Assembly: GCF_000243415.2 (NCBI RefSeq)
Contig: NZ_KI912270.1
Coordinates: forward strand, 2,232,001 to 2,296,000
From: Mycolicibacterium tusciae JS617
GTDB lineage: Bacteria > Actinomycetota > Actinomycetes > Mycobacteriales > Mycobacteriaceae
Reading direction: 5' to 3'
DNA: 64,000 bases
The notes under the pieces are model-generated. The model saw only the letters and a list, made by a program, of their open reading frames with translations. It was not told the DNA's origin and searched no databases. Below are positions 6,586 to 35,055 of this stretch, in pieces. The position numbers were made by a program, and so were the translations under genes. The stretch's first letter is position 1. Every line of letters starts with the position of its first letter.

Positions 6586-8352
6586 GTGCCTGATTTGTTG
6601 GTCGTCGAGAATGTGTTGGTGGCCAAGGGGTATCGACCGGTAGTGCGTGATCAGCAGTTCTTAGTTCCGCCGGATATGCGGGAGTGGCTGCCTGCGGATC
6701 ATTCGGTGTGGGCGTTGATCGGGATCGTGGAGGGGTTGGACACCTCGGCGTTTCACCACCAGCGACGGACCGGTGGTGTCGGGCGGGCCGGGTATGACCC
6801 CGACATGTTGGTGACGCTGCTGATCTGGGCGTGGTCGCAGGGGGTGCGGTCCTCGCGTCGGATCGAGCGGGCGTGTGCTGATGTGGTGTCTTATCGGGTG
6901 ATCTGTGCTGGTGATGGGCCTGATCACGTCACGATCGCGCGGTTTCGCGCCGAGAACCACGCCGCGTGTGAGCAGTTGTTCACCGAGGTGTTGATGTTGG
7001 CTGCCGGGCTGGGGTTGGGCCGGCTGGAGACCGTCGCACTCGACGGAGTCAAGATCGCCTCGAACGCGTCGCTGTCGGCCAACCGCACCACCTCGGGGCT
7101 AGCCAAGGCCGCCGCGGCGGAGGCGGCCCGAATCGCCAAGGCTGCGGCGGCCGCACACGAAGCCACTGATGCCGCCGAGGACGAGATGTTTGGCGACGAT
7201 AACCCGGGGTCGGTACCGGCCGAGTTGACCGATCCGGCGGTGCTGGCTAAACGCATCGCCGAAGCGCTGGCACGGCGCAACGCCGAGGACACCGCCCAGG
7301 GGCCCGCCGCCGATGATGGTGCACCGGCTGCGGAATCGGTTGAGCTCGAACGGGTTGCCCACGACCGATCGGGGCGCATCGCCCAAGCCCAGGCCCGCAT
7401 CGACGCCGAGATCGCCGCCGAACGCGCCGAACGCGACGCCTTGGTGGGCAAGTATCTGGCGCGCATCGCGGCCGGGGAGAAGATGACCGGCCGGATCCCG
7501 GCCGGCGCCCAGGTGGCGATGGCCGAGCGGGTGCTGGCCGCGGCGGTGGCCAGGTCGCAGGCCAAACACCAAAGTTGGGCCGCACGCGGCGCGGTCGGCG
7601 CCCGACGTCGGGGGCGCTCACCGGCGCCCGTCGAGCAGAACGCCCGGGTCCGTCAGGCGCGAGCGCGACTGGAGCGGGCCCGGGCCGCGCAGGTGGCTGC
7701 CGCCCAGGCCGCCACCAACGTCGAACGCACGGCCAATCTCACCGATCCCCAATCACGGATCCAGCCGTTGCGCGGGGGTGGCTGGCTGCAGGGCTACAAC
7801 TGCCAGGCAGTCACCGCCGCTGACGGGCTGATCGTGGCCACCGGGGTGGGCACCAGCCCGGTGGACAACCAGTACTACACCGACATGATCGACAAGGCCA
7901 TCAAGTCCGCGGACCTGATCACCGGCCACCGCCGCGATGACACATCAACCACGGCCACCGCCTCCTCGATCGCGATGGTGCTCGCCGACGCCGGCTACTG
8001 CACGAACGAGAACCTGACCGCGCCAGGACCAGACCGGCTGATCGCTACCGGCAAGGCCCGCGACGTGCACCACGCGGCCACCGAACATCCCACTCAAGGG
8101 CCACCGCCCACCGACGCCGATCCGATCGCGGCGATGGCTCACCGGTTACGCACCCCGCAGGGAATCATTCAGTACGCCATGCGATCTCACATCGCCGAGA
8201 CACCATTCGGACATGCCAAGCACAACCTCGGATTCCGCCGATTCACCGGCAGAGGCCTGGCCCGAGCACGCAGCGAATGGACATTCCACGCCGCGGTCCA
8301 CAACATCGGCAAGATCCTCAACCACCTCGCCAGCACACCACTGCCCGCCTGA
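6586..8352 (+). CDS. IS1182-family transposase
   Basis: A 588-residue DDE transposase. The N-terminal DUF772-type domain is evident (YRPVVRDQQFLVPPDMREWL, then 'YDPDMLVTLLIWAWSQGVRSSRRIE'). The catalytic pieces are an Asp in 'TVALDGVKIASNAS', an Asp in 'VLADAGYCTNENL', and a C-terminal block with the Glu in 'GRGLARARSEW'. A long Ala/Arg-rich insertion (about residues 160-390) separates the first and second catalytic parts, as in other long IS1182 members. The reading frame is intact, so the element could still be active. The start codon is one of several possibilities near the left end. Confidence 0.9.
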   Translation: MPDLLVVENVLVAKGYRPVVRDQQFLVPPDMREWLPADHSVWALIGIVEGLDTSAFHHQRRTGGVGRAGYDPDMLVTLLIWAWSQGVRSSRRIERACADVVSYRVICAGDGPDHVTIARFRAENHAACEQLFTEVLMLAAGLGLGRLETVALDGVKIASNASLSANRTTSGLAKAAAAEAARIAKAAAAAHEATDAAEDEMFGDDNPGSVPAELTDPAVLAKRIAEALARRNAEDTAQGPAADDGAPAAESVELERVAHDRSGRIAQAQARIDAEIAAERAERDALVGKYLARIAAGEKMTGRIPAGAQVAMAERVLAAAVARSQAKHQSWAARGAVGARRRGRSPAPVEQNARVRQARARLERARAAQVAAAQAATNVERTANLTDPQSRIQPLRGGGWLQGYNCQAVTAADGLIVATGVGTSPVDNQYYTDMIDKAIKSADLITGHRRDDTSTTATASSIAMVLADAGYCTNENLTAPGPDRLIATGKARDVHHAATEHPTQGPPPTDADPIAAMAHRLRTPQGIIQYAMRSHIAETPFGHAKHNLGFRRFTGRGLARARSEWTFHAAVHNIGKILNHLASTPLPA

Positions 8353-9670: not shown

Positions 9671-10114
9671 TCAGCCGGCGAAGAACAACTCGAGCTGGAT
9701 GTTGTCAGGGTCGCGGAACGCTACGGTCGCAAAGGGGAACGGCTGGTCCCCGCCCCTGATGCCGGAGTGTTCGATGCCGAGTTCGTCGAGCCGGGCCGTC
9801 CAGGCCTCGAGGTCGCTACGTGAAGCGACGTTCAGCGCCAAGTGGTCCAGCCCCGTGCGGGCCTCGTCGAAGGGCTGCCCGTCGTTCCCGGTGTTGGTGT
9901 GCAGACCGATCACGACACCTGAGCGCGGATCGACGAGCAATTCGCCGTAGCCGGTGTCCTCGCACCCGTAATGCGGGAATTTCATCGGGACCCGGTCGGC
10001 GCCGAGCAGGCGCTGGTACCAGGCCAGGCTGGCCTCGAGGTCGGTAACGGTGATGGAGAAGTGGTGGATCCCGGTGACGCCGGGGATTGCATGTTCGCTC
10101 ACGTCTGGCTCCAT
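9671..10114 (-). CDS. VOC/glyoxalase-family protein
   Basis: A 147-residue single vicinal-oxygen-chelate protein. It starts with the first metal-ligand strand 'GIHHFSITVTDLEASLAWY', contains 'GLDHLALNV' at the start of the second beta-alpha repeat and ends with 'RDPDNIQLELFF', which carries the usual terminal Glu ligand. These proteins are metal-dependent isomerases, dioxygenases or resistance proteins, and the substrate here is unknown. It is read away from the SigF gene, whose SigF-type promoter lies in the shared 127-bp upstream region. Confidence 0.87.
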   Translation of the reverse strand: MEPDVSEHAIPGVTGIHHFSITVTDLEASLAWYQRLLGADRVPMKFPHYGCEDTGYGELLVDPRSGVVIGLHTNTGNDGQPFDEARTGLDHLALNVASRSDLEAWTARLDELGIEHSGIRGGDQPFPFATVAFRDPDNIQLELFFAG

Positions 10115-10145
10115 GTCGATGGTCTACCAGTGTGGCGGTCGGTTG

Positions 10146-10171
10146 GTTTCGGCAGGCCGGTTTTCGGGTAT
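10146..10171 (+). promoter_or_regulatory. SigF-type promoter of the first sigF paralogue
   Basis: GTTT at 10146-10149, 16-bp spacer, GGGTAT at 10166-10171. This fits the mycobacterial SigF consensus exactly and implies autoregulation. The sequence just downstream (GGTTCAGATCCGAGCCGC and CGGATAGGGGCCTT) recurs before the second sigF paralogue. Confidence 0.85.
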
Positions 10172-10241
10172 AGCCGAAGCCACGAGAGGTTCAGATCCGA
10201 GCCGCGTATCGCAAGCGCAACCCGGATAGGGGCCTTCCAAC

Positions 10242-11045
10242 GTGTCTGATTCAAGCTCTGAATACTCCGACCTCACCGAAATGTTTCGTCGCCTGGCGAC
10301 CCTCGATGAAGGCTCAGTGGCATATCAACGGCAACGCGACGAAATCATCCAGCGCGCACTGCCGCTCGCCAATCACATTGCTCGGCGGTTCAGGAATCGC
10401 GGAGAGCCGTACGAGGATCTCGTGCAGGCCGCTCGGGTTGGTCTGGTCAACGCCGTCAACCGTTTCGATCCCGAGAACGGTGCGCAATTCCTCGCCTTCG
10501 CCGTGCCGACGATGATGGGCGAGGTTCGCCGTCATTTCCGTGACTACGGATGGGCGGTCAAGGTCCCCCGGCGCTTGAAAGACCTTCAGGGCCAAATGGT
10601 CAAGGCCCGTGGCGCGTTGTCCCAAGACCTCAATCGTGCGCCAACCGCTTCGGAGATCGCCAATTATCTTGGCGTCGACCGTGAATCGGTGGTGCAAGCG
10701 ACGATCGCGAGTAGCAATTACTCCACGTTGTCGACCGACGTGCAAGCCGGTCCGGACGCCGAGTACCGCGGCATCGGTGACACTCTTGGCGATGTCGACC
10801 CCAACATCGAGAAGGTGCTCGCGCTCGAGACCGTCCGTCCGTTGATAGCCGCGTTGCCAGATCGCGAGCAGACCGTTCTGACGCTGCGCTTCTTCGACAA
10901 CATGACGCAGACGCAGATCGCCGCACGCATGGGCTATTCGCAGATGCATGTGTCGCGGCTCATCGCCAAAGCCCTCGGCACGCTCCGCAACCAGGTTCGG
11001 GAACCGGACCGGGTGGACTCGCGTGAGCTCGCCGTGCCCGCCTGA
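10242..11045 (+). CDS. sigF: SigB/SigF/SigG-family RNA polymerase sigma factor (paralogue 1)
   Basis: A 267-residue stress-type sigma factor. Region 2 is readable around 'RFRNRGEPYEDLVQAARVGLVNAVNRFD' and 'FLAFAVPTMMGEVRRHFRD'; the region 3 stretch is 'VPRRLKDLQGQM'; region 4 is 'LPDREQTVLTLRFFDNMTQTQIAARMGYSQMHVSRLIAKAL'. The GTG start follows GGATAGGGG. A perfect SigF-type promoter lies about 70 bp upstream. Unlike the usual mycobacterial arrangement there is no anti-sigma gene beside it. A close paralogue lies at 32788-33573. Naming it sigF is by family; which paralogue is the orthologue of the classical sigF cannot be decided here. Confidence 0.93.
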   Translation: MSDSSSEYSDLTEMFRRLATLDEGSVAYQRQRDEIIQRALPLANHIARRFRNRGEPYEDLVQAARVGLVNAVNRFDPENGAQFLAFAVPTMMGEVRRHFRDYGWAVKVPRRLKDLQGQMVKARGALSQDLNRAPTASEIANYLGVDRESVVQATIASSNYSTLSTDVQAGPDAEYRGIGDTLGDVDPNIEKVLALETVRPLIAALPDREQTVLTLRFFDNMTQTQIAARMGYSQMHVSRLIAKALGTLRNQVREPDRVDSRELAVPA

Positions 11046-11138
11046 CCAGGTCGGATTCGACCTACGGCGTGCCTTTTAGAAACTCCCAAGGGGCTTAGCG
11101 GACCCTTCCATCATGAATCTGGTCGGGCTGCTTCCGCC

Positions 11139-14100
11139 GTGGCGAAGGTGATGGGGAACAACTCGGCGCCCACCGGTGCCTTGACGCGACTGGCCGCATT
11201 CACCGTGCGATGCCCCAAGTTGGTGCTCGGCGGCCTCGCGCTGCTGCTCGGCATCAGCATTGTGGTCGGCAGCGGCGTGTCCGACAAGCTGGGCGTCGGC
11301 GGCTATAACGCCCCGTCGTCCGAATCGACGCACGCCGCCGAGTTCCTCGACCAGAACTTCGGCACGACCGCCAACCTGGTGATCCAGCTGCTGCCGCGCG
11401 AAGGCACCATTGACGGTGCCGCCTCGGCCGAGGTGGCCAGCCAGGTTTCGGACGTCATCAAGGCTGAGCCGGAGGCCAAAGTCACCCGATCGTTCACCGA
11501 CGGGTCGGCGACCGACCTGCGCAGCCGGGACGGTCGCTCCGGCCTGATTCTCGTGCATGTCAGTGGCACCGCGGATGAGGCCGCCGACATCGCCAAGCGG
11601 CTGATCGCAGACCTGCCCGCCGACCCGAACGTCGACATTCGGGCCGGTGGCACGCTCGGCGTCCAGCAGGAAATCCGGGCCAAGGTCAAGAACGACATCA
11701 AGGTCAGCGAAAGTATCGCGCTGCCGGTCTCGCTTGCCGTGCTGGTCATCGTGTTCGGCGGGCTTATCGCCGCGTTCCTGCCGATCCTCGTCGGCGTCAC
11801 ATCGATCGTCACAACGCTGCTTGTGCTCGTACTCATGACGAGGGTCACCGAGGTCTCGACGCATGCGCTCACCGTCGCAACCGCGTTCGGTCTCGGGTTG
11901 TCCATCGACTTCGGCCTCTTGATGGTGTCGCGATTCCGCGAAGAACGCGACAGTGGAAAAGACCACGAGGCGGCGATTGTGGCGATGGTCGTTACGGCCG
12001 GCCGCACGATCATCTTCAGCGCGGCGACGGTCACCCTGGCCATGTTGTCGCTGCTGGTGTTTCCCACTTACTTCCTGCGGTCGGTCGGTATTGCCGCGAG
12101 TGCGACCGTCGTCCTGTCGGCGTTGAGCGCGATCATCGTGCTGCCTGCAATGTTGGCAATACTCGGAAAGCGCATCGACTCGCTGGCCATCATCCGACGC
12201 AAGACCGCACCGTCCGCCGACTCCGCCTTCTGGCGGCAGTTCGCCGCGGCAGTCATCCGCCGCCCGCTGCTCTACGCCCTGCCCGTCGTCGTGGTGCTGA
12301 TCGGTCTCGGCGTTCCGTTTCTGAAGGTGCAGTTCACCAACCCCGACGAGCGCGCACTGCCCACTGACTCGAACGCGCGTCTGGTGGCCGAGTCGCTGCA
12401 GCGGGACTTTCCACTGGACCCCTCCCAGGCGATCACCCTGGTGACGCCGAATGAGGCCGGCGTGTTGGAAACCCTTGCCGCCGAGGTGTCCCAGATGGAC
12501 GACGTGGTGCTCGTCAACGGTTCGATCGGCAAGTTCGAGAACGGCGCACGCGTCGGGCAGGCACCACGCAGCGAGGACACCGGCGCCGCCTATGCGTTGG
12601 CATACCTTGCGGTGGATGCGGACTTGAAAGCCGCCGAACAACTCGTGCACGATATCCGCGGGAAAGTCACCGACCAGCAGGTCGAGATCGGCGGATCGAC
12701 CGCCGCGCTCATCGACAGCCGCCACGCCATCGCTGAGCGACTGCCGTGGGCGATCGGGTTGATCGCGGTCTTCACATTCATCCTGCTCTTCCTGTTCACC
12801 GGCAGCGTTGTCGTGCCGGTGAAAGCGCTGCTGCTGAACCTGCTCGTCCTCTCGGGCGTCTTGGGCGTCATGGTGTGGATCTTCCAGGAAGGACACTTCG
12901 CGTCACAGCTCGGATTCACGCCTGCGCCGTTGAATCTGTCAATGGTCGTTCTGCTCTGCGCGATCGCGTTCAGCCTGTCCGTCGACTACGAGATCTTCCT
13001 GCTGAGCCGCATCAAGGAAGCCCGAGACTCGGGTATGTCGAACGACGACGCCATTGTTGTCGGCCTCGGTCGAGTCGGCCGGATCGTCACCAGCGCAGCA
13101 CTTCTGCTGACGATCACGCTGATCGCGTTCGCCAACGGGATGTCCTTCATGAAGATGTTCGGCATCGGCACGGCGCTGGCCGTCGTGATCGACGCTACGA
13201 TCATTCGCGGCGTCGTCGTGCCGGCATTCCTTCGTGTCGCGGGCGAATTCAACTGGTGGGCGCCGAAGCCGTTGCGCTGGCTGCACTCCCGCATCGGCAT
13301 CAGCGAGGCTCTTTCCGTCGCTGTCGACGAAGCAACGATCGACGTGCCGCAGCGCGACGTCTCGGCGGCTGGAATCGGTGTACCGACTGCGGCTCTGACG
13401 CCGTCCGACCTCGCCAACCGGGTCCAGGTCATCTCCGGTACGCACCTCGTCGCGAACGTGAACGGCACGGTCATCGTGGTCGCCAACCGCAAGTCGCCTT
13501 CCCAACAAGCCATGGCCGCCCAGCAGATGTCGCATCTCGTCGAGATCGTCGGGCGGACCGAGCCCGCGTTGTTGTCGTACGCGTTCTCACAGCTCACCGG
13601 GAACGGCACCTGGAGCCGTGATCTCGCGGAGGTCGGCATCATCGTGCCCAATGCGGCAGGCCTGGAGATCTTCTTGTGCGGCGGAGTGACCGTCGTGCTC
13701 GACGACGGTACGGAAGCCACCCAGATCGAGGGACGCAACCGCTGCCTGCACCAATCTGTACGGACACCGGCAGTGGCGGCCATCATCACCGTCGACGAAC
13801 TCGGAAAGCGGTCTTGCCTCACCCCGGCCGACAGAAACAGCGTTTCAACTCCCCCGGACGGCGTTGTTCCGGGGCGCGGCGCGGTCGTCTGGTCGACGGA
13901 TCAGGCATCGGATCAACCGTGCGCGCCTGAGCCGGTCCACCCGCTTTCGGCCGCGCCGACGGTCGAGGTCCCTCTGCCGGCGCCGTGGGTGGTCCTCGAT
14001 GACGACTCCCTGCTCAAGATCGACCGCGACAGCGTGATCGGCCGCGACCCACACAATTCGAATGCGACACGGGAGGGCCTTCGCCCGTTGCGCATCACCG

Positions 14101-14357
14101 ACTGCTCGGGCCTGATGTCCCGCGCCCACATGGAGATTCGGCTCGTCGACGGCGAGCTCGTCGTCGTCGACCGAAACTCGACCAACGGTGTGCTGATCCG
14201 CGAGCCCGGGCAGCAAGCCTGGACGCGGCTCGCTCCATGGCAGCCTACGATCTTCCGGACCGGTGCCATGATTCGCGTCGGTGGCCGGACGCTTCACGCC
14301 CAGTCGCACACCGCGCCTCAGGCCCAGCGTCCTCGTGTGCACGCCATGTCGGTCTAG
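11139..14357 (+). CDS. MMPL/RND-type membrane transporter with C-terminal FHA domain
   Basis: A 1072-residue fusion. Residues ~1-740 are an MMPL (RND-type) exporter: a first membrane helix around 28-48, then two sets of clustered helices with 'FGLGLSIDFGLLMVSRFREERD' and 'IAFSLSVDYEIFLLSRIKEARD'. Residues ~750-900 form a soluble segment containing 'GTHLVANVNGTVIVVANRK'. Residues ~955-1055 form an FHA phosphothreonine-binding domain with 'SVIGRDPHN', 'LMSRAHMEI' and 'VVDRNSTNGVLIR'. FHA domains dock Ser/Thr-kinase-phosphorylated partners, so transport may be under kinase control. It lies 93 bp after sigF and may be co-transcribed. The GTG at 11139 is used; an ATG at 11151 is possible. Confidence 0.88.
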   Translation: MAKVMGNNSAPTGALTRLAAFTVRCPKLVLGGLALLLGISIVVGSGVSDKLGVGGYNAPSSESTHAAEFLDQNFGTTANLVIQLLPREGTIDGAASAEVASQVSDVIKAEPEAKVTRSFTDGSATDLRSRDGRSGLILVHVSGTADEAADIAKRLIADLPADPNVDIRAGGTLGVQQEIRAKVKNDIKVSESIALPVSLAVLVIVFGGLIAAFLPILVGVTSIVTTLLVLVLMTRVTEVSTHALTVATAFGLGLSIDFGLLMVSRFREERDSGKDHEAAIVAMVVTAGRTIIFSAATVTLAMLSLLVFPTYFLRSVGIAASATVVLSALSAIIVLPAMLAILGKRIDSLAIIRRKTAPSADSAFWRQFAAAVIRRPLLYALPVVVVLIGLGVPFLKVQFTNPDERALPTDSNARLVAESLQRDFPLDPSQAITLVTPNEAGVLETLAAEVSQMDDVVLVNGSIGKFENGARVGQAPRSEDTGAAYALAYLAVDADLKAAEQLVHDIRGKVTDQQVEIGGSTAALIDSRHAIAERLPWAIGLIAVFTFILLFLFTGSVVVPVKALLLNLLVLSGVLGVMVWIFQEGHFASQLGFTPAPLNLSMVVLLCAIAFSLSVDYEIFLLSRIKEARDSGMSNDDAIVVGLGRVGRIVTSAALLLTITLIAFANGMSFMKMFGIGTALAVVIDATIIRGVVVPAFLRVAGEFNWWAPKPLRWLHSRIGISEALSVAVDEATIDVPQRDVSAAGIGVPTAALTPSDLANRVQVISGTHLVANVNGTVIVVANRKSPSQQAMAAQQMSHLVEIVGRTEPALLSYAFSQLTGNGTWSRDLAEVGIIVPNAAGLEIFLCGGVTVVLDDGTEATQIEGRNRCLHQSVRTPAVAAIITVDELGKRSCLTPADRNSVSTPPDGVVPGRGAVVWSTDQASDQPCAPEPVHPLSAAPTVEVPLPAPWVVLDDDSLLKIDRDSVIGRDPHNSNATREGLRPLRITDCSGLMSRAHMEIRLVDGELVVVDRNSTNGVLIREPGQQAWTRLAPWQPTIFRTGAMIRVGGRTLHAQSHTAPQAQRPRVHAMSV

Positions 14358-30561: not shown

Positions 30562-31362
30562 GTGGACGTTCACACCAGGCACAACATCAACGTCGTGGGT
30601 GCCGAACATGGGCCGACGCTGATGCTGGTGCACGGTTTCGGATGTGATCAAAACCTGTGGCGTCTGGTCGCCAACCAGTTGGAGTCGGAATTCCGTCTCG
30701 TCCTCATCGACCTCGTGGGGTCAGGATTGTCGGACCCAGCCGCCTGGGACGCGACAAAGTACTCCTCGTTGTCGGGCTACGCATCCGACATCCTCGACAT
30801 CGTCAATGAGCTCGATCTGCGCGACGTCGTGTTCGTCGGACACTCGGTGTCGGCGATTATCGGCGCACTCGCAACGATCAGCGATCCATCCCGATTCGCC
30901 AAACTGGCGCTACTGACACCCTCCCCCCGTTACATCGACGACGGCGATTACCGCGGCGGTTTCTCGCAAGCCGATATCGACGAACTCCTCGAATCCCTCG
31001 AGCAGAACTACCTGGGTTGGTCGCGCGCAATGGCGCCGGTCATCATGGGAAACCCGGACCGGCCCGAACTAGCAGACGAGTTGGGCGACACCTTCTGCAA
31101 GGCCGACCCGGAGCACGCCCGCGTTTTCGCCGGCGCCACGTTCCTGTCCGACAACCGCGCCGACCTCGCGCGGATATCGCTGCCAACGCTGGTTATCGAA
31201 TGCGCGCAGGATTCCATCGCGCCGCCTCAGGTGGGTGCCTACGTCCACGCGCAGATTCCCGCGAGTCAGCTCGTCACCCTGGCCGCGACCGGCCACTGCC
31301 CGCACGTCAGCGCCCCGGAGGCCACCGCATCGGCGATCGCCGCGTTCGCTCGGTCGACGTGA
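30562..31362 (+). CDS. rsbQ: RsbQ-like alpha/beta hydrolase
   Basis: A 266-residue hydrolase matching Bacillus RsbQ along its length: 'VHGFGCDQNLWR', 'VGSGLSDPAAWD', 'VFVGHSVSAIIGALA', 'NYLGWSRAMAPVIMGNPDRPEL' and 'GHCPHVSAP'. The triad is Ser95, Asp217, His245, at nearly the same positions as in RsbQ. RsbQ produces the signal that activates its partner PAS-phosphatase RsbP under energy stress; plant D14/KAI2 receptors share the fold. Its stop overlaps the PAS-phosphatase start (GTGA), as expected for an RsbQ-RsbP pair. The GTG start has a weak ribosome site. Confidence 0.88.
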   Translation: MDVHTRHNINVVGAEHGPTLMLVHGFGCDQNLWRLVANQLESEFRLVLIDLVGSGLSDPAAWDATKYSSLSGYASDILDIVNELDLRDVVFVGHSVSAIIGALATISDPSRFAKLALLTPSPRYIDDGDYRGGFSQADIDELLESLEQNYLGWSRAMAPVIMGNPDRPELADELGDTFCKADPEHARVFAGATFLSDNRADLARISLPTLVIECAQDSIAPPQVGAYVHAQIPASQLVTLAATGHCPHVSAPEATASAIAAFARST

Positions 31363-32519
31363 CCGACTACAGCACCGCGGACTTCTGGGAAGACGCTCCG
31401 AGTGGACTCGTGATCGCCCACCCGGACGGCCGCATCATCCGCGTCAACGCGACCGCGGCGCGATGGCTGGGTTATGAGGCAAATGCACTGTGCGGCATGA
31501 TGTTCACCGATCTGCTGACTGTCGGTGGACGCATACTCTACGAAACACACTTCGGGCCACTGCTTCAGGTGGGCGGCGATCTCAACGGCGTAACCGTGGA
31601 TGTCGTCGGCGCCGATGGAAATCGAAAGCCGATGTTTCTCACTGCGAATGTCAAAATCGATGCAGCACACAAGCCGGAGCTGCTTCGAATCAGCGTGGTG
31701 GATGCCGCTGATCGCCGTGCCTACGAGGTCGAACTCCTGGAGGCGCGCCGACTGGCGGTGAAGGAGCAAAGACGTGTCCGGGAGTTCGCCGACACTCTGC
31801 GCCGGGCGCTGCTGCCGCCCGTGTTGTCACCGCCTTCCGGCCTAGAGGCGGCTGACTACTACAACGCGGCTTCGGTCGACGACGTGGGCGGCGACTTCTA
31901 TGACCTCTTCCCGCTCACGCGTACGACGTGGGGCTTCTTCCTGGGCGACGTCTCGGGCAAGGGTGTCGAGGCCGCAGTGGTGACGGCGTTGACCAGGTAC
32001 ACGTTGCGCGCCGCGGCGGTCTTCGACGACGAGCCCGTGGAGGTGCTGCACAACCTCAACACCGTCCTCAGCCAAGAGCTCGGTGGCGAACTCAACCGGT
32101 TCTGCACGTTGATCTACGGGAAACTGTCCCGATGCGACAACGGTTTTGATGTCCATGTGGCCAGCGGCGGTCACCCGCCGCCGCTGCTGCTCTATGCCGA
32201 CGGCAGCGCCTACTACGCCGACACCATCGGCGGCCAAGCCGTCGGCATGACGAATGAACCGCATTTCGTCGCCTGCCGATTCACGCTCGCCCCCGGCGAC
32301 ACGCTGGTGCTGTACACCGACGGGCTCACCGAAGCCAGCACCGGAGTCGGCCGCGAACGCTACGACGACGAGGGCGCACTACTCCGCTTCGCGAAGGCGC
32401 AATCTCCGACTACCGCGTCGGCCATCGTCGACGCCGTTTCTGGCCTACTCAAAGGCCTCGGTTCTGGCGTCCAGGACGACACCGCTGTATTGGCGCTCGG
32501 AGTCCCTCGCAGAAGTTGA
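31359..32519 (+). CDS. rsbP: PAS domain-containing PP2C (SpoIIE-type) phosphatase, RsbP-like
   Basis: A 386-residue sensor phosphatase. A PAS domain covers about 8-118 ('WEDAPSGLVIAHPDGRIIRV', 'WLGYEANALCGMMFTDLL'), a linking helix 121-150 ('LLEARRLAVKEQRRVREFAD'), and a SpoIIE-type PP2C 155-386 with the metal motifs 'DDVGGDFYDLF', 'FLGDVSGKGVEAA', 'ASGGHPPPL', 'LYTDGLTEA' and 'QDDTAVLAL'. This is the RsbP architecture: it dephosphorylates an anti-anti-sigma factor to free a stress sigma factor. The GTG at 31359 overlaps the RsbQ-like stop codon by 4 bp. A SigF gene follows. Confidence 0.92.
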   Translation: MTDYSTADFWEDAPSGLVIAHPDGRIIRVNATAARWLGYEANALCGMMFTDLLTVGGRILYETHFGPLLQVGGDLNGVTVDVVGADGNRKPMFLTANVKIDAAHKPELLRISVVDAADRRAYEVELLEARRLAVKEQRRVREFADTLRRALLPPVLSPPSGLEAADYYNAASVDDVGGDFYDLFPLTRTTWGFFLGDVSGKGVEAAVVTALTRYTLRAAAVFDDEPVEVLHNLNTVLSQELGGELNRFCTLIYGKLSRCDNGFDVHVASGGHPPPLLLYADGSAYYADTIGGQAVGMTNEPHFVACRFTLAPGDTLVLYTDGLTEASTGVGRERYDDEGALLRFAKAQSPTTASAIVDAVSGLLKGLGSGVQDDTAVLALGVPRRS

Positions 32520-32532
32520 GCTCGTCGCCACC

Positions 32533-32557
32533 GTTTTTGCGTTGGCGGCGTGGGTAT
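32533..32557 (+). promoter_or_regulatory. SigF-type promoter, distal of two before sigF paralogue 2
   Basis: GTTT at 32533-32536, 15-bp spacer, GGGTAT at 32552-32557, beginning 14 bp after the phosphatase stop codon. No convincing gene starts between it and the proximal promoter at 32693, so it probably adds to sigF expression. Confidence 0.65.
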
Positions 32558-32692
32558 CGCAGCAGGAGTGGCGGCAGTTGACGGTTGTGTCTGAAGGCGT
32601 CACGAGGCGGATGTCGGGTGCAACCCTGACGTTGAGACAACAGCGCAGCCTGGGATTCGCCGCTCTCTGATTCGCCGCCGCGCGGGCGCGAC

Positions 32693-32718
32693 GTTTGCGC
32701 TGGTCACCGAGTGGGTAT
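32693..32718 (+). promoter_or_regulatory. SigF-type promoter, proximal, of sigF paralogue 2
   Basis: GTTT at 32693-32696, 16-bp spacer, GGGTAT at 32713-32718, a perfect SigF consensus. The following leader repeats GGTTCAGATCCGAGCCGC and CGGATAGGGGCCTT from the leader of the other sigF paralogue. Confidence 0.88.
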
Positions 32719-32787
32719 AGCCCTCCCGCAGGTTCAGATCCGAGCCGCATGCATCAGTCCGACAGCGCGCGGATAGGGGCCTTTGAG

Positions 32788-33573
32788 GTGTCAGGAAAAA
32801 GCTCGGAGTACCGGGACGTGACGGAAATGTTCCGTCACCTGAGGACGCTTGACGAAGAGTCGGCCGCCTTCCGCCGCCACCGCGACGCGATTGTCGAACA
32901 GGCGCTGCCGGTCGCTGACCACATCGCACGTCGATTCATGAACCGTGGCGAACCACTCGATGATCTTGTCCAGGCCGCACGAGTCGGTCTGGTCAATGCG
33001 GTGAACCGGTTTGACGTCGAAACGGGATCTGACTTCCTGTCGTTCGCGGTGCCAACGATGATGGGCGAGGTTCGTCGCCACTTTCGCGATCACGGGTGGG
33101 CGGTAAAGGTTCCTCGCCGCCTCAAGGATCTGCAGAAGCAACTCGTCGTGGCCCGCGGTGAGTTGTCGCAAGGGCTCGGACGCGCACCGACGGCATCTGA
33201 GCTCGCAGATCATCTCGAGCTCGATCGTGAATTGGTCGTCCAGGCATTGATCGCCGGCAGCAACTATTCCACCCGTTCTACCGACATGCCGGTCGGTCCG
33301 GATGGCGAAACCCGTTCGCTGGGTGAGACATTCGGCGACATAGACCCCAACTTGGACAATGTGCTCGACGGGGAAACCCTACGTCCGCTCATCGCTGCTC
33401 TGCCTGAGCGTCACCGCAACGTGCTGATGCTGCGATTCTTCGAGAATATGACTCAAACCCAGATCGCGGAGCGCGTCGGCTGTTCGCAGATGCACGTCTC
33501 GCGTCTCATCGCACAGGCCCTCCGCACATTGCGAGATCAAATCCGTGATCCCGCCCTCGCTGCGGCTGCCTGA
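32788..33573 (+). CDS. sigF: SigB/SigF/SigG-family RNA polymerase sigma factor (paralogue 2)
   Basis: A 261-residue stress sigma factor closely similar to the product of 10242-11045 over its whole length: 'RFMNRGEPLDDLVQAARVGLVNAVNRFD', 'FAVPTMMGEVRRHFRDHGWAVKVPRRLKDLQ', and region 4 'MLRFFENMTQTQIAERVGCSQMHVSRLIAQAL'. The GTG at 32788 is fixed by alignment with the paralogue and by the SigF-type promoter 70 bp upstream, which excludes longer starts. It lies directly downstream of an RsbQ-RsbP-type stress module but has no anti-sigma gene at its side. It is expected to direct transcription of the nearby csbD-like and membrane-protein operons. Confidence 0.92.
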   Translation: MSGKSSEYRDVTEMFRHLRTLDEESAAFRRHRDAIVEQALPVADHIARRFMNRGEPLDDLVQAARVGLVNAVNRFDVETGSDFLSFAVPTMMGEVRRHFRDHGWAVKVPRRLKDLQKQLVVARGELSQGLGRAPTASELADHLELDRELVVQALIAGSNYSTRSTDMPVGPDGETRSLGETFGDIDPNLDNVLDGETLRPLIAALPERHRNVLMLRFFENMTQTQIAERVGCSQMHVSRLIAQALRTLRDQIRDPALAAAA

Positions 33574-33631
33574 CACTGAGTTCACGTATGGCGAGAAATC
33601 AACATCAACATCAACATCACAGCGACAAAGC

Positions 33632-33657
33632 GTTTCGGATGAGTGCCGCAGCGGTAT
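33632..33657 (+). promoter_or_regulatory. SigF-like promoter of the csbD-like gene
   Basis: GTTT at 33632-33635, 16-bp spacer, CGGTAT at 33652-33657: one mismatch to the SigF consensus. It lies about 57 bp before the CsbD start. Confidence 0.65.
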
Positions 33658-33714: not shown

Positions 33715-33888
33715 ATGGGTGCCGGAGACAAAGCAAGCAACAAGATCGACGACGCAGGCGGCAAGATCAAAGAGGGTCTGGGCAAGGTGACCGGAGACAA
33801 GAGCACCGAAAACGAAGGCAAGGTCGACCAAGCGAAGTCCAGCCTCAAGGACGCGGGCGAAAAGATCAAGGACGCGTTCAAGAGCTAG
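33715..33888 (+). CDS. CsbD-family general stress protein
   Basis: A 57-residue hydrophilic CsbD protein: '[20 protein letters not shown]', then '[32 protein letters not shown]'. CsbD proteins are small, abundant general-stress proteins; in Bacillus and mycobacteria their genes are often under SigB/SigF control. The ATG at 33715 has a GAAGGGAA ribosome site. A SigF-like promoter lies upstream and a strong stem-loop downstream. Confidence 0.9.
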
Positions 33889-33961: not shown

Positions 33962-34429
33962 TCAGACTGTAAGCAGTCGCTGGAAGAACTCTCGATAGCG
34001 CTGCAGGGCCAATCGAAGATCCTCGGTGGAGGCCTGCTCGCCCCGGGCCCACTGCGCTTCGAGTCGCGAGCGCGCCTCAGAGAACGCCGTCGTCAGCTGG
34101 TCGACGACCTCCGCCACGAGGGCGTCTGCCTTCTGGACACAGTCGGCGGGATCGTCGACAAACACCGCCTGGATGTCATCCCAGCGCGAGCGCAACCCGG
34201 AAGGATCTGCGGCGAAAAGCAATTCGTCATCCGACGGTTTAACTTCGGCGCTGGGCGGCACTGTCTCGGTCCGCGTGGGCTGAGGTTCGATCGGCGCATT
34301 GTCCGAGGCGGCCTCGGTGGATTCGGCCGACGAAACATTCTGCGAGACGGACGGTTCCTCTGCCGCGCCGGAGGACTCGGGCTGTGCAGGTTGCGTCGGA
34401 GCTGTCGTCCGCTCGTCATGGGTTGTCAT
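33962..34429 (-). CDS. Cytosolic stress-operon protein with repeated family domain
   Basis: A 155-residue protein. Residues 1-75 are acidic, Ser/Thr/Pro-rich and probably disordered. Residues about 78-155 form a helical domain, 'LRSRWDDIQAVFVDDPADCV' then 'QKADALVAEVVDQL', ending 'ALQRYREFFQRLLTV'. The same domain occurs in the upstream partner gene, with which it overlaps by 4 bp. No function is known for this domain as far as I can tell. It is the second gene of an operon with a SigF-type promoter. Confidence 0.82.
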   Translation of the reverse strand: MTTHDERTTAPTQPAQPESSGAAEEPSVSQNVSSAESTEAASDNAPIEPQPTRTETVPPSAEVKPSDDELLFAADPSGLRSRWDDIQAVFVDDPADCVQKADALVAEVVDQLTTAFSEARSRLEAQWARGEQASTEDLRLALQRYREFFQRLLTV

Positions 34430-35007
34430 GCTGTCGCCTCCTTTGGTGTGTCCTGCTCGATTGCGTGGTCCGTGCCGAGCAGCTGCTCGAAGAGCGCGCG
34501 ATAGTGGACGAACGCCTGGCGTTGCGCCTCCGTGCCGATATCGGCCTTCTCCTGTGCCAGGTGAAGGGTGTGCGCAGCGCGGTAGTGCTCGACCGTGTCA
34601 GGGTGATCGACCGAGATGTCGGAAGCTTGCTGATCGAAATCATCAACGGGATAACCACGTTCGCGCATCACCTCGGTGACAAGTCGATCCGCGTCACCCA
34701 CGGCGCCCGCCGGATCATCGACGAAAGCACGCTGGACGGTCTGCCATGAGTTGGCATATCGCTCGTGCGCTTCCGGCGGCAACGCGACGATGTCGAGCTT
34801 CTGACGCTTCCGTTCACGCGCGACCAGCTCCTGCTCGGCAGCGCGCTGATCACCGGCGTCTTCGACGGCCCGCTCGTACTCCGCACCGAAGTGCTCTTTC
34901 AGACGTCTCGTCTTCCTGCGGCCGGTCACGGACAAAACTGCGATCAAAACCAGCGTCAACGCGATCAGAACGCCTGCTGCGATGAAGAACCAACTCCAGA
35001 CGGGCAT
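34426..35007 (-). CDS. Membrane-anchored stress-operon protein with repeated family domain
   Basis: A 193-residue protein with one N-terminal membrane helix (about 5-28), a basic/coiled segment (RRKTRRLKEHFGAEYERAVE) and a C-terminal domain, 'SWQTVQRAFVDDPAGAVGDA' then 'DRLVTEVM', ending 'FVHYRALFEQLLGT'. This domain is clearly related to that in the downstream gene; one protein is membrane-anchored, the other soluble. GAAGGAGG precedes the ATG, and a SigF-type promoter lies 24-48 bp upstream of it. The role is unknown, but the promoter implies a stationary-phase or stress function. Confidence 0.87.
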   Translation of the reverse strand: MPVWSWFFIAAGVLIALTLVLIAVLSVTGRRKTRRLKEHFGAEYERAVEDAGDQRAAEQELVARERKRQKLDIVALPPEAHERYANSWQTVQRAFVDDPAGAVGDADRLVTEVMRERGYPVDDFDQQASDISVDHPDTVEHYRAAHTLHLAQEKADIGTEAQRQAFVHYRALFEQLLGTDHAIEQDTPKEATA

Positions 35008-35030: not shown

Positions 35031-35055
35031 ATACCCGACCGTCACCTACGGAAAC
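35031..35055 (-). promoter_or_regulatory. SigF-type promoter of the two-gene stress operon
   Basis: On the minus strand, GTTT (35055-35052), 15-bp spacer, GGGTAT (35036-35031), then GAAGGAGG and the ATG at 35007. It is a full match to the SigF consensus. Confidence 0.82.

Follow-up and report, generated by a model that had tools for sequence, protein, structure and literature searches.

The 64-kb stretch of DNA analysed here (the window; positions 2,232,001 to 2,296,000 of contig NZ_KI912270.1, from the 7.3-Mb genome of Mycolicibacterium tusciae JS617) carries an rsbQ-rsbP gene pair followed by a gene for SigF, the mycobacterial general-stress sigma factor. We consider it probable (about 0.6) that this pair, hereafter rsbQP, represents the RsbQ-RsbP energy-stress input in an actinobacterial version, acting via a STAS protein on SigF. 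Gene identity, the predicted architecture, the catalytic residues, the overlap of the two genes, the SigF-type promoter-like sites and the repeated association with sigF and STAS genes are directly supported. The presence of rsbQP in mycobacteria is already known, the proteins are ordinary and the pathway is of a known type; what appears to be new is the recurrent wiring of the pair beside sigF genes that lack rsbW, together with local SigF-type promoter-like sites. Such wiring would provide a second, physically linked, energy-sensing-type input of the Bacillus kind beside SigF paralogues without a neighbouring inhibitor gene, and would allow two questions to be addressed in one strain, namely which signal is sensed by the RsbQ hydrolase and what restrains the spare SigF proteins.

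Identity of RsbQ

The rsbQ gene (30562..31362, plus strand; GTG start) encodes an alpha/beta hydrolase of 266 aa. A first-pass annotation of this DNA had matched the product to RsbQ on its motifs, and a search of Protein Data Bank (PDB) chains bears this out: the best chain is B. subtilis RsbQ (1wom; E 4e-78), covering residues 5-262, with 117 of 257 aligned residues identical (46%). The next chains are the bacterial 3qvm (5e-68) and proteins of the KAI2/D14 type (2e-57 to 2e-41), while other hydrolases reach only 5e-15 or weaker. This ranking rules out an unrelated esterase, the counter-case raised in that annotation. Many of the 120 close homologues listed carry the source name 'sigma-B regulation protein RsbQ', and the window protein is 89% identical to RsbQ of Mycobacterium neglectum.

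For both proteins we aligned 79 sequences, from the window and 78 of 80 named loci (L and G numbers denote our loci and genomes; L149, whose contig ends after rsbQ, and L177, with rsbP in two pieces, were excluded), and RsbQ residues were matched to B. subtilis numbering through the 1wom alignment. Papers are cited by PMC number. In B. subtilis RsbQ the triad is formed by S96, D219 and H247, and the cavity and gate by F27, V97, F136 and F196 (PMC3183031). The corresponding triad S95/D217/H245, along with F26, V96, F134 and F194, is invariant in all 79 aligned sequences. Judged by its sequence, the window hydrolase is a genuine RsbQ. In the assembly of a close relative (L125, genome G146), rsbQ is split across two reading frames and rsbP matches over its full length.

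Architecture of RsbP

The rsbP gene (31359..32519, plus strand; GTG start, 386 aa) lies directly downstream of rsbQ in a different frame; the two overlap by 4 bp (GTGA, common to both), as had been described at first pass. The domain search and a predicted structure, the latter drawing on 47 of the 79 sequences, agree with the RsbP architecture proposed there: an N-terminal PAS domain (residues ~1-115) is followed by a central helix and a C-terminal SpoIIE/PP2C domain (~160-386). The linker is modelled as a 35-residue helix (117-151). None of the structural matches listed fell on the PAS half of the model, which was not counted against the PAS assignment.

The PP2C aspartates D179, D197, D321, D373 and D374 are conserved in at least 97% of the 79 RsbP sequences. 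RsbP-PAS domains are distinguished by characteristic residues and by the absence of a DIT motif (PMC3183031), and this motif was found in none of the 79 sequences. Placed by a constant offset of 5, rather than by direct alignment with B. subtilis RsbP, the positions L48, Q53 (basic), Y59 (H/Y), P62 and P86 fit the B. subtilis protein, with E72 unplaced. By the same offset, the B. subtilis positions C10, L13, F55 and C56 are occupied in the window by S15, V, L60 and Y, and the first three of them in the family by C (67/79), L (62/79) and Y or H (75/79). By the RsbQ sequence and the predicted architecture of RsbP, the gene pair is a genuine RsbQ-RsbP module, although the RsbP-PAS residues give a mixed picture.

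The sigF gene and SigF-type promoter-like sites

The downstream sigF gene indicated by the first-pass annotation (32749..33573, plus strand) passes the NCBIfam SigF model with 401 bits against a cut-off of 372. It is a paralogue without an adjacent rsbW, here termed an orphan: no rsbW lies directly upstream, a search of 6 kb around it gave no RsbW homologue, and this genome has its canonical locus at L209.

The SigF consensus is given as GGWWT-N16-17-GGGTAY or GTTT-N14-19-GGGTA (PMC7693655, PMC4694148). The pattern GTTT-N15-17-SGGTA occurs five times in the window, against 0.58 expected, and none of 100 shuffles reached five. All five sites are upstream of genes on the correct strand. Two precede the orphan sigF, one at 32693..32717 (plus strand; GTTT-N16-GGGTA), 31 bp 5' of the start codon, and a weaker candidate at 32533..32556 (plus strand; GTTT-N15-GGGTA), 192 bp 5' of it. 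The others precede csbD (33632..33656, plus strand; GTTT-N16-CGGTA), a 193-aa protein gene (35032..35055, minus strand; GTTT-N15-GGGTA) and a second sigF (10146..10170, plus strand; pattern scan). Since rsbP and sigF are separated by 229 bp that contain the site at 32693-32717, sigF could be transcribed independently of rsbQP; the distance and the promoter-like sites suggest that sigF is controlled separately rather than as a member of an rsbQP operon.

The csbD family gene (33715..33888, plus strand) encodes 57 aa and matches Pfam CsbD with 58 bits (cut-off 40). The 193-aa gene (34426..35007, minus strand) is the first of a predicted SigF-type operon and overlaps by 4 bp the second, encoding 155 aa (33962..34429, minus strand); neither product has a Pfam match. 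Beyond these two lies a minus-strand fatty-acid desaturase gene.

The second orphan sigF (10242..11045, plus strand) is 71% identical to the first and is located 20 kb upstream of rsbQ. It is followed directly by a gene for an MmpL transporter with a C-terminal FHA domain (10242-14357 for the two genes), the SigF-type site preceding sigF. A DDE transposase gene (DUF772) is present at 6586-8352; an open frame that shares its first 12 residues is located at 17033-18271 of L213, near rsfSR-like genes.

Linkage of rsbQP to orphan sigF genes

An RsbQ match at E 1e-30 or better was found in 59 of 198 same-genus genomes (own included), an even draw from a larger group. With genome G106 (L128; RsbQ of 38% identity, no RsbP found) counted as negative, 58 RsbQP genomes remain, each represented by one locus (L070-L126 and the window; L127 left out), some of them shortened by contig ends. 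A sigF gene lies within 6 kb of rsbQ in 17 of the 58, in every case within 3.9 kb, whereas 0.25 genomes with sigF within 5 kb would be expected by chance from the sigF copy numbers (Poisson 1.5e-25, relatedness ignored). It is downstream on the same strand in the window, L072 and L073; divergent and ~150 bp upstream in L077, L079, L083, L086, L088 and L093; convergent downstream with a STAS gene behind it in L076, L078, L084, L091, L096 and L100; and convergent ~3.7 kb downstream in L102 and L105. In L083, a Ser/Thr protein kinase gene with membrane helices (9737-11689), seen by eye, converges on the sigF that is divergent from rsbQ.

On a tree of RsbQ plus RsbP (57 mycobacterial rows, omitting L125 and L127, a second, broken copy in G140), this linkage changes at least seven times. 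A 65-row SigF tree, which omits four duplicates of loci already included (L130, L131, L139, L143), scatters the linked sigF genes over some five positions, all of them outside the RsbW-linked clade. Eight form one clade, and a second clade is of the divergent type; L072/L073 are unresolved, L102/L105 take a further position, and the window gene groups with L223 (support 91). The promoter-like pattern precedes 9 of the 17 linked genes, namely 6/6 of the divergent, 2/2 of the 3.7-kb, 1/3 of the downstream and 0/6 of the convergent type with STAS. It also precedes 4/4 of the csbD genes found (background 0.008 per 300 bp), the match of M. neglectum csbD lying at another position and the aligned site lacking its -35 half. 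The site of the 193-aa gene is kept in all four relatives that have the gene (L070, L071, L125, L223), three of which lack this sigF, while L223 lacks rsbQP in the locus. Recurrent gene linkage and SigF-type promoter-like sites support a probable link of rsbQP to SigF.

Other genes of the SigF system also occur within 6 kb of rsbQ in the 58 loci: STAS genes in 19, stressosome-type RsbU in 8 and RsbW in 4, with any SigF-system gene in 34. As RsbP itself matches the RsbU query, the RsbU count is restricted to the stressosome type; this gene is in opposite orientation to rsbQP in all eight genomes (L095, L104, L107, L112, L113, L117-L119), so that two inputs are neighbours there. Outside the mycobacteria, a SigF match lies within 6 kb in 1 of 62 named loci and a STAS match in 9 of 62, the mycobacterial queries being liable to miss distant homologues.

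The genome of the window has four sigF genes, namely the canonical one (L209), the two orphans of the window (32749-33573 and 10242-11045) and one at 5.45 Mb; the region 4 DNA-binding part is much alike among the four products. We sampled 69 sigF rows, comprising those beside rsbQP, these four and 40 picked loci, most of the latter with ~5 kb flanks and a few with less. In the canonical clade, rsbW is adjacent in 15 of 15, whereas three RsbW queries gave no match within 6 kb, or to the flank end, in the 54 non-canonical rows (a Streptomyces row and four rows that each duplicate another locus included). Among genomes at least 90% complete and at most 5% contaminated, the mean sigF copy number is 2.54 in RsbQP genomes (n=54) and 1.50 in others (n=131; p 3e-10, relatedness ignored); these numbers may be underestimates, 12 candidates being scored per genome. 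The excess holds in three genome-size classes (p 0.0001, 0.002 and 0.002), the smallest of which has only 3 carriers.

In close relatives, the composition of the locus varies. Three of them, M. neglectum (L070), L071 and L125, have rsbQP and csbD and lack this sigF; in L070, the missing stretch is 32665-33636 and its flanks align at 83-87% identity. In L072 and L073, a different SigF paralogue occupies the same place, and L223 has SigF, csbD and the 193-aa gene. Since these three loci are without this sigF and L223 has it minus rsbQP, either repeated loss or a gain of the gene must have occurred, and the data fit both.

Distribution and origin of rsbQP

In 137 of 139 loci (59 from the genome set and 80 named, some species being common to both), rsbP comes after rsbQ in the same orientation, the exceptions being L128 and L149, where the contig ends. 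In the 78 measurable named loci, the genes overlap by 1 or 4 bp in 72 and are 2 bp apart in 6; the rsbP start codon nearest the rsbQ stop was taken, which favours overlaps. Named carriers include Mycobacterium, Streptomyces, Amycolatopsis, Saccharothrix, Nocardia, Rhodococcus and Williamsia, and the best 80 named matches, out of 576 that encode a relative, are all actinobacterial by title. With five other actinobacterial rows as root, the tree joins the mycobacterial RsbQP proteins to those of Williamsia, Rhodococcus and Antrihabitans. Carried by 58 of 198 same-genus genomes and by diverse other Actinobacteria, rsbQP is thus an actinobacterial module of patchy occurrence in mycobacteria.

One possibility named in the first-pass annotation, a transplanted Bacillus-type branch, was not borne out. 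Horizontal transfer from Bacillus is unlikely because the pair is widespread in Actinobacteria, as seen in the best 80 matches and the tree placement, and because the G+C content of rsbQ and rsbP (0.64) equals that of the region; the comparison with Bacillus here was with PDB 1wom alone. The G+C values of sigF (0.61) and csbD (0.57) are lower. The same annotation regarded an RsbQ-RsbP input as unusual in mycobacteria; the module is real, but its novelty did not stand, since a 2021 paper had reported homologues of rsbQ and rsbP for several mycobacteria, slow-growing and rapid-growing alike, and had suggested that M. vaccae may use an 'RsbPQX-route' to SigF (PMC8115616). In the published text searched, which did not cover figures, supplements (including Fig. 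S1 of PMC8115616) or subscription papers, we found no report of rsbQP-sigF linkage to rsbW-less paralogues or of local SigF-type promoters.

Candidate substrate and anti-sigma partners

In several lineages the neighbour of rsbQ is a STAS protein gene whose product has a serine motif (FLASAGM and similar), which we take to resemble that of RsbV. Beside rsbQP in M. komossense are genes for a STAS-RsbW pair and for a receiver-domain protein. In M. smegmatis, RsbW1 is the anti-sigma factor, and RsfB is phosphorylated by RsbW2 and dephosphorylated by RsfR (PMC7693655, PMC10950880). Judged by domains and gene order, the genome of the window carries an RsbW1-like gene next to sigF at L209, whose match covers just one half of the ATPase model, and an RsbW2-like gene next to rsfSR-like genes at L213. 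On the same grounds, a STAS gene is paired at 531 kb (L211) with a gene for an RsbW-like protein with a full ATPase domain.

This RsbW-like protein occurs in 31 of 198 genomes (E 1e-30 or better). Among the matches listed, an orphan SigF above 355 bits is present in 19/31 genomes with it and 9/167 without it (Fisher p 4e-12); for RsbQP the figures are 20/31 and 38/167 (p 2e-5), and for sigF linkage within RsbQP genomes 13/20 and 4/38 (p 3e-5), relatedness being ignored in all three tests. Independent pairs on the RsbQP tree (omitting L125) give, for orphan SigF, an average of 3.7 agreeing and 0 disagreeing (median p 0.125) and, for sigF linkage, 0.6 agreeing and 0.5 disagreeing (p 1). These descent-aware pairs are too few to confirm the co-occurrence, and show no trend for linkage.

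At 4.32 Mb, the same genome has a stressosome-like cluster (L212), named by domains and order, of RsbR, RsbS, RsbT, an RsbX-like protein and RsbU (RsbU_N, PAS, PP2C and ATPase domains). Because of this cluster, several PP2C-type inputs would seem to coexist in the cell.

Proposed mechanism and alternatives

We propose that RsbQ, with its intact triad, would bind the PAS domain of an RsbP dimer under a signal that is probably low energy, and that this signal would travel via the 35-residue linker helix to switch on the PP2C domain. An AlphaFold2 model has placed RsbQ on an RsbP dimer, with activation through the linker proposed (PMC12143880). RsbP would then dephosphorylate an RsfB-like STAS protein whose gene lies elsewhere, the best candidate system for this substrate being the STAS and RsbW-like pair at 531 kb. 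The dephosphorylated STAS protein would capture an anti-sigma factor and free SigF, the neighbouring SigF presumably being among the outputs. Free SigF may transcribe its own gene in positive feedback, along with csbD and the 193/155-aa operon.

Several observations weigh against this proposal. The window RsbP differs from most of the family at the C10 (S15) and F55 (L60) positions, and in B. subtilis an F55A exchange gives a null phenotype and inhibits the interaction with RsbQ (PMC3183031). No STAS or rsbW match occurs anywhere in the window. The 300 bp upstream of rsbQ contain no SigF-type site in any of 60 loci, and 8 of the 17 RsbQP-linked sigF genes likewise lack one. Lastly, 24 of the 58 mycobacterial loci show no SigF, STAS, RsbW or stressosome-type RsbU within 6 kb, and the three close relatives (L070, L071 and L125) lack this sigF. 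For these last two reasons adjacency is not needed: the branch feeding SigF that was suggested at first pass gains from the recurrent linkage and the promoter-like sites, but a general adjacency across mycobacterial genomes, with sigF near in 17 of 58 only, does not hold.

Those 24 loci, and the single SigF neighbour in 62 non-mycobacterial named loci obtained with mycobacterial queries, would also suit an RsbQP that drives a non-SigF output in an incidental neighbourhood. A published survey couples the RsbQ-PAS module to phosphatases, kinases and cyclases (PMC3183031). However, the 17 linked genomes against 0.25 expected arose via several separate events, and we regard such an output as quite improbable. 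The two remaining alternatives are finer versions of the proposed input to SigF and overlap with it. RsbQP may be a general input that works through a shared RsfB-like STAS pool and activates all SigF proteins, the canonical one included, with the adjacent sigF as a local target or a hitch-hiking paralogue. The three close relatives without this sigF fit this view, as do the likeness of region 4 among the four SigF paralogues and the site of the 193-aa gene, which is kept irrespective of an adjacent sigF or rsbQP. Linkage, however, is to orphan sigF only (rsbQ is in 0 of 15 canonical flanks of ~5 kb, against 17 orphans within 5 kb), and we give the general input somewhat less than an even chance.

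RsbQP could instead form an insulated second circuit with the 531-kb STAS/RsbW-like pair and orphan SigF, separate from the rsbW-sigF line. The Fisher tests, in which the RsbW-like protein co-occurs with orphan SigF, RsbQP and sigF linkage, favour this, but they ignore descent, and the independent pairs reach a median p of 0.125 at best and 1 for linkage; moreover, a full ATPase domain may mark the protein as solely a kinase, like M. smegmatis RsbW2, and not as an anti-sigma factor. Such insulation strikes us as rather unlikely. It is equally doubtful that mycobacteria repeatedly built a second insulated stress circuit, in which an RsbQP energy sensor, a STAS/RsbW-like pair and an anti-sigma-less SigF driving itself and a small local regulon would stand beside the canonical circuit in the same cell.

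Comparison with known systems

Our preferred reading, an energy-stress input via a STAS protein to SigF, can be set against four known systems. The plant KAI2/D14 proteins, which rank next to RsbQ and bacterial 3qvm among hydrolases of known structure, are receptors, and we know of no PAS-PP2C partner for them. The B. subtilis RsbQ-RsbP system, the SigB energy-stress branch (for a definition of the RsbQ-PAS module see PMC3183031), shares with the window the order rsbQ then rsbP, the RsbQ triad and cavity residues, the combination of PAS, linker helix and PP2C, the lack of a DIT motif and a general-stress sigma factor as presumed output. It differs in that the window RsbQ is 46% identical, at least two RsbP-PAS positions of the window differ, no rsbV-rsbW lies beside the window pair, and the output would be a mycobacterial SigF paralogue.

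The M. smegmatis partner switching by RsbW1, RsbW2, RsfB and RsfSR (PMC7693655, PMC10950880) is similar in the presumed PP2C action on an RsfB-like STAS protein, and the genome of the window likewise has rsbW-sigF (L209) and, by domains and order, rsfSR-like genes (L213). There, the state of respiration reaches SigF through RsfSR (PMC10950880), a histidine kinase with a receiver-PP2C protein, whereas RsbQP combines a hydrolase with a PAS-PP2C protein. The mycobacterial stressosome (RsbRST-RsbX-RsbU), with a cluster of its kind at L212, also supplies a PP2C-type input, but with a different sensor and with an RsbU that carries RsbU_N and a fused RsbW-like ATPase domain.

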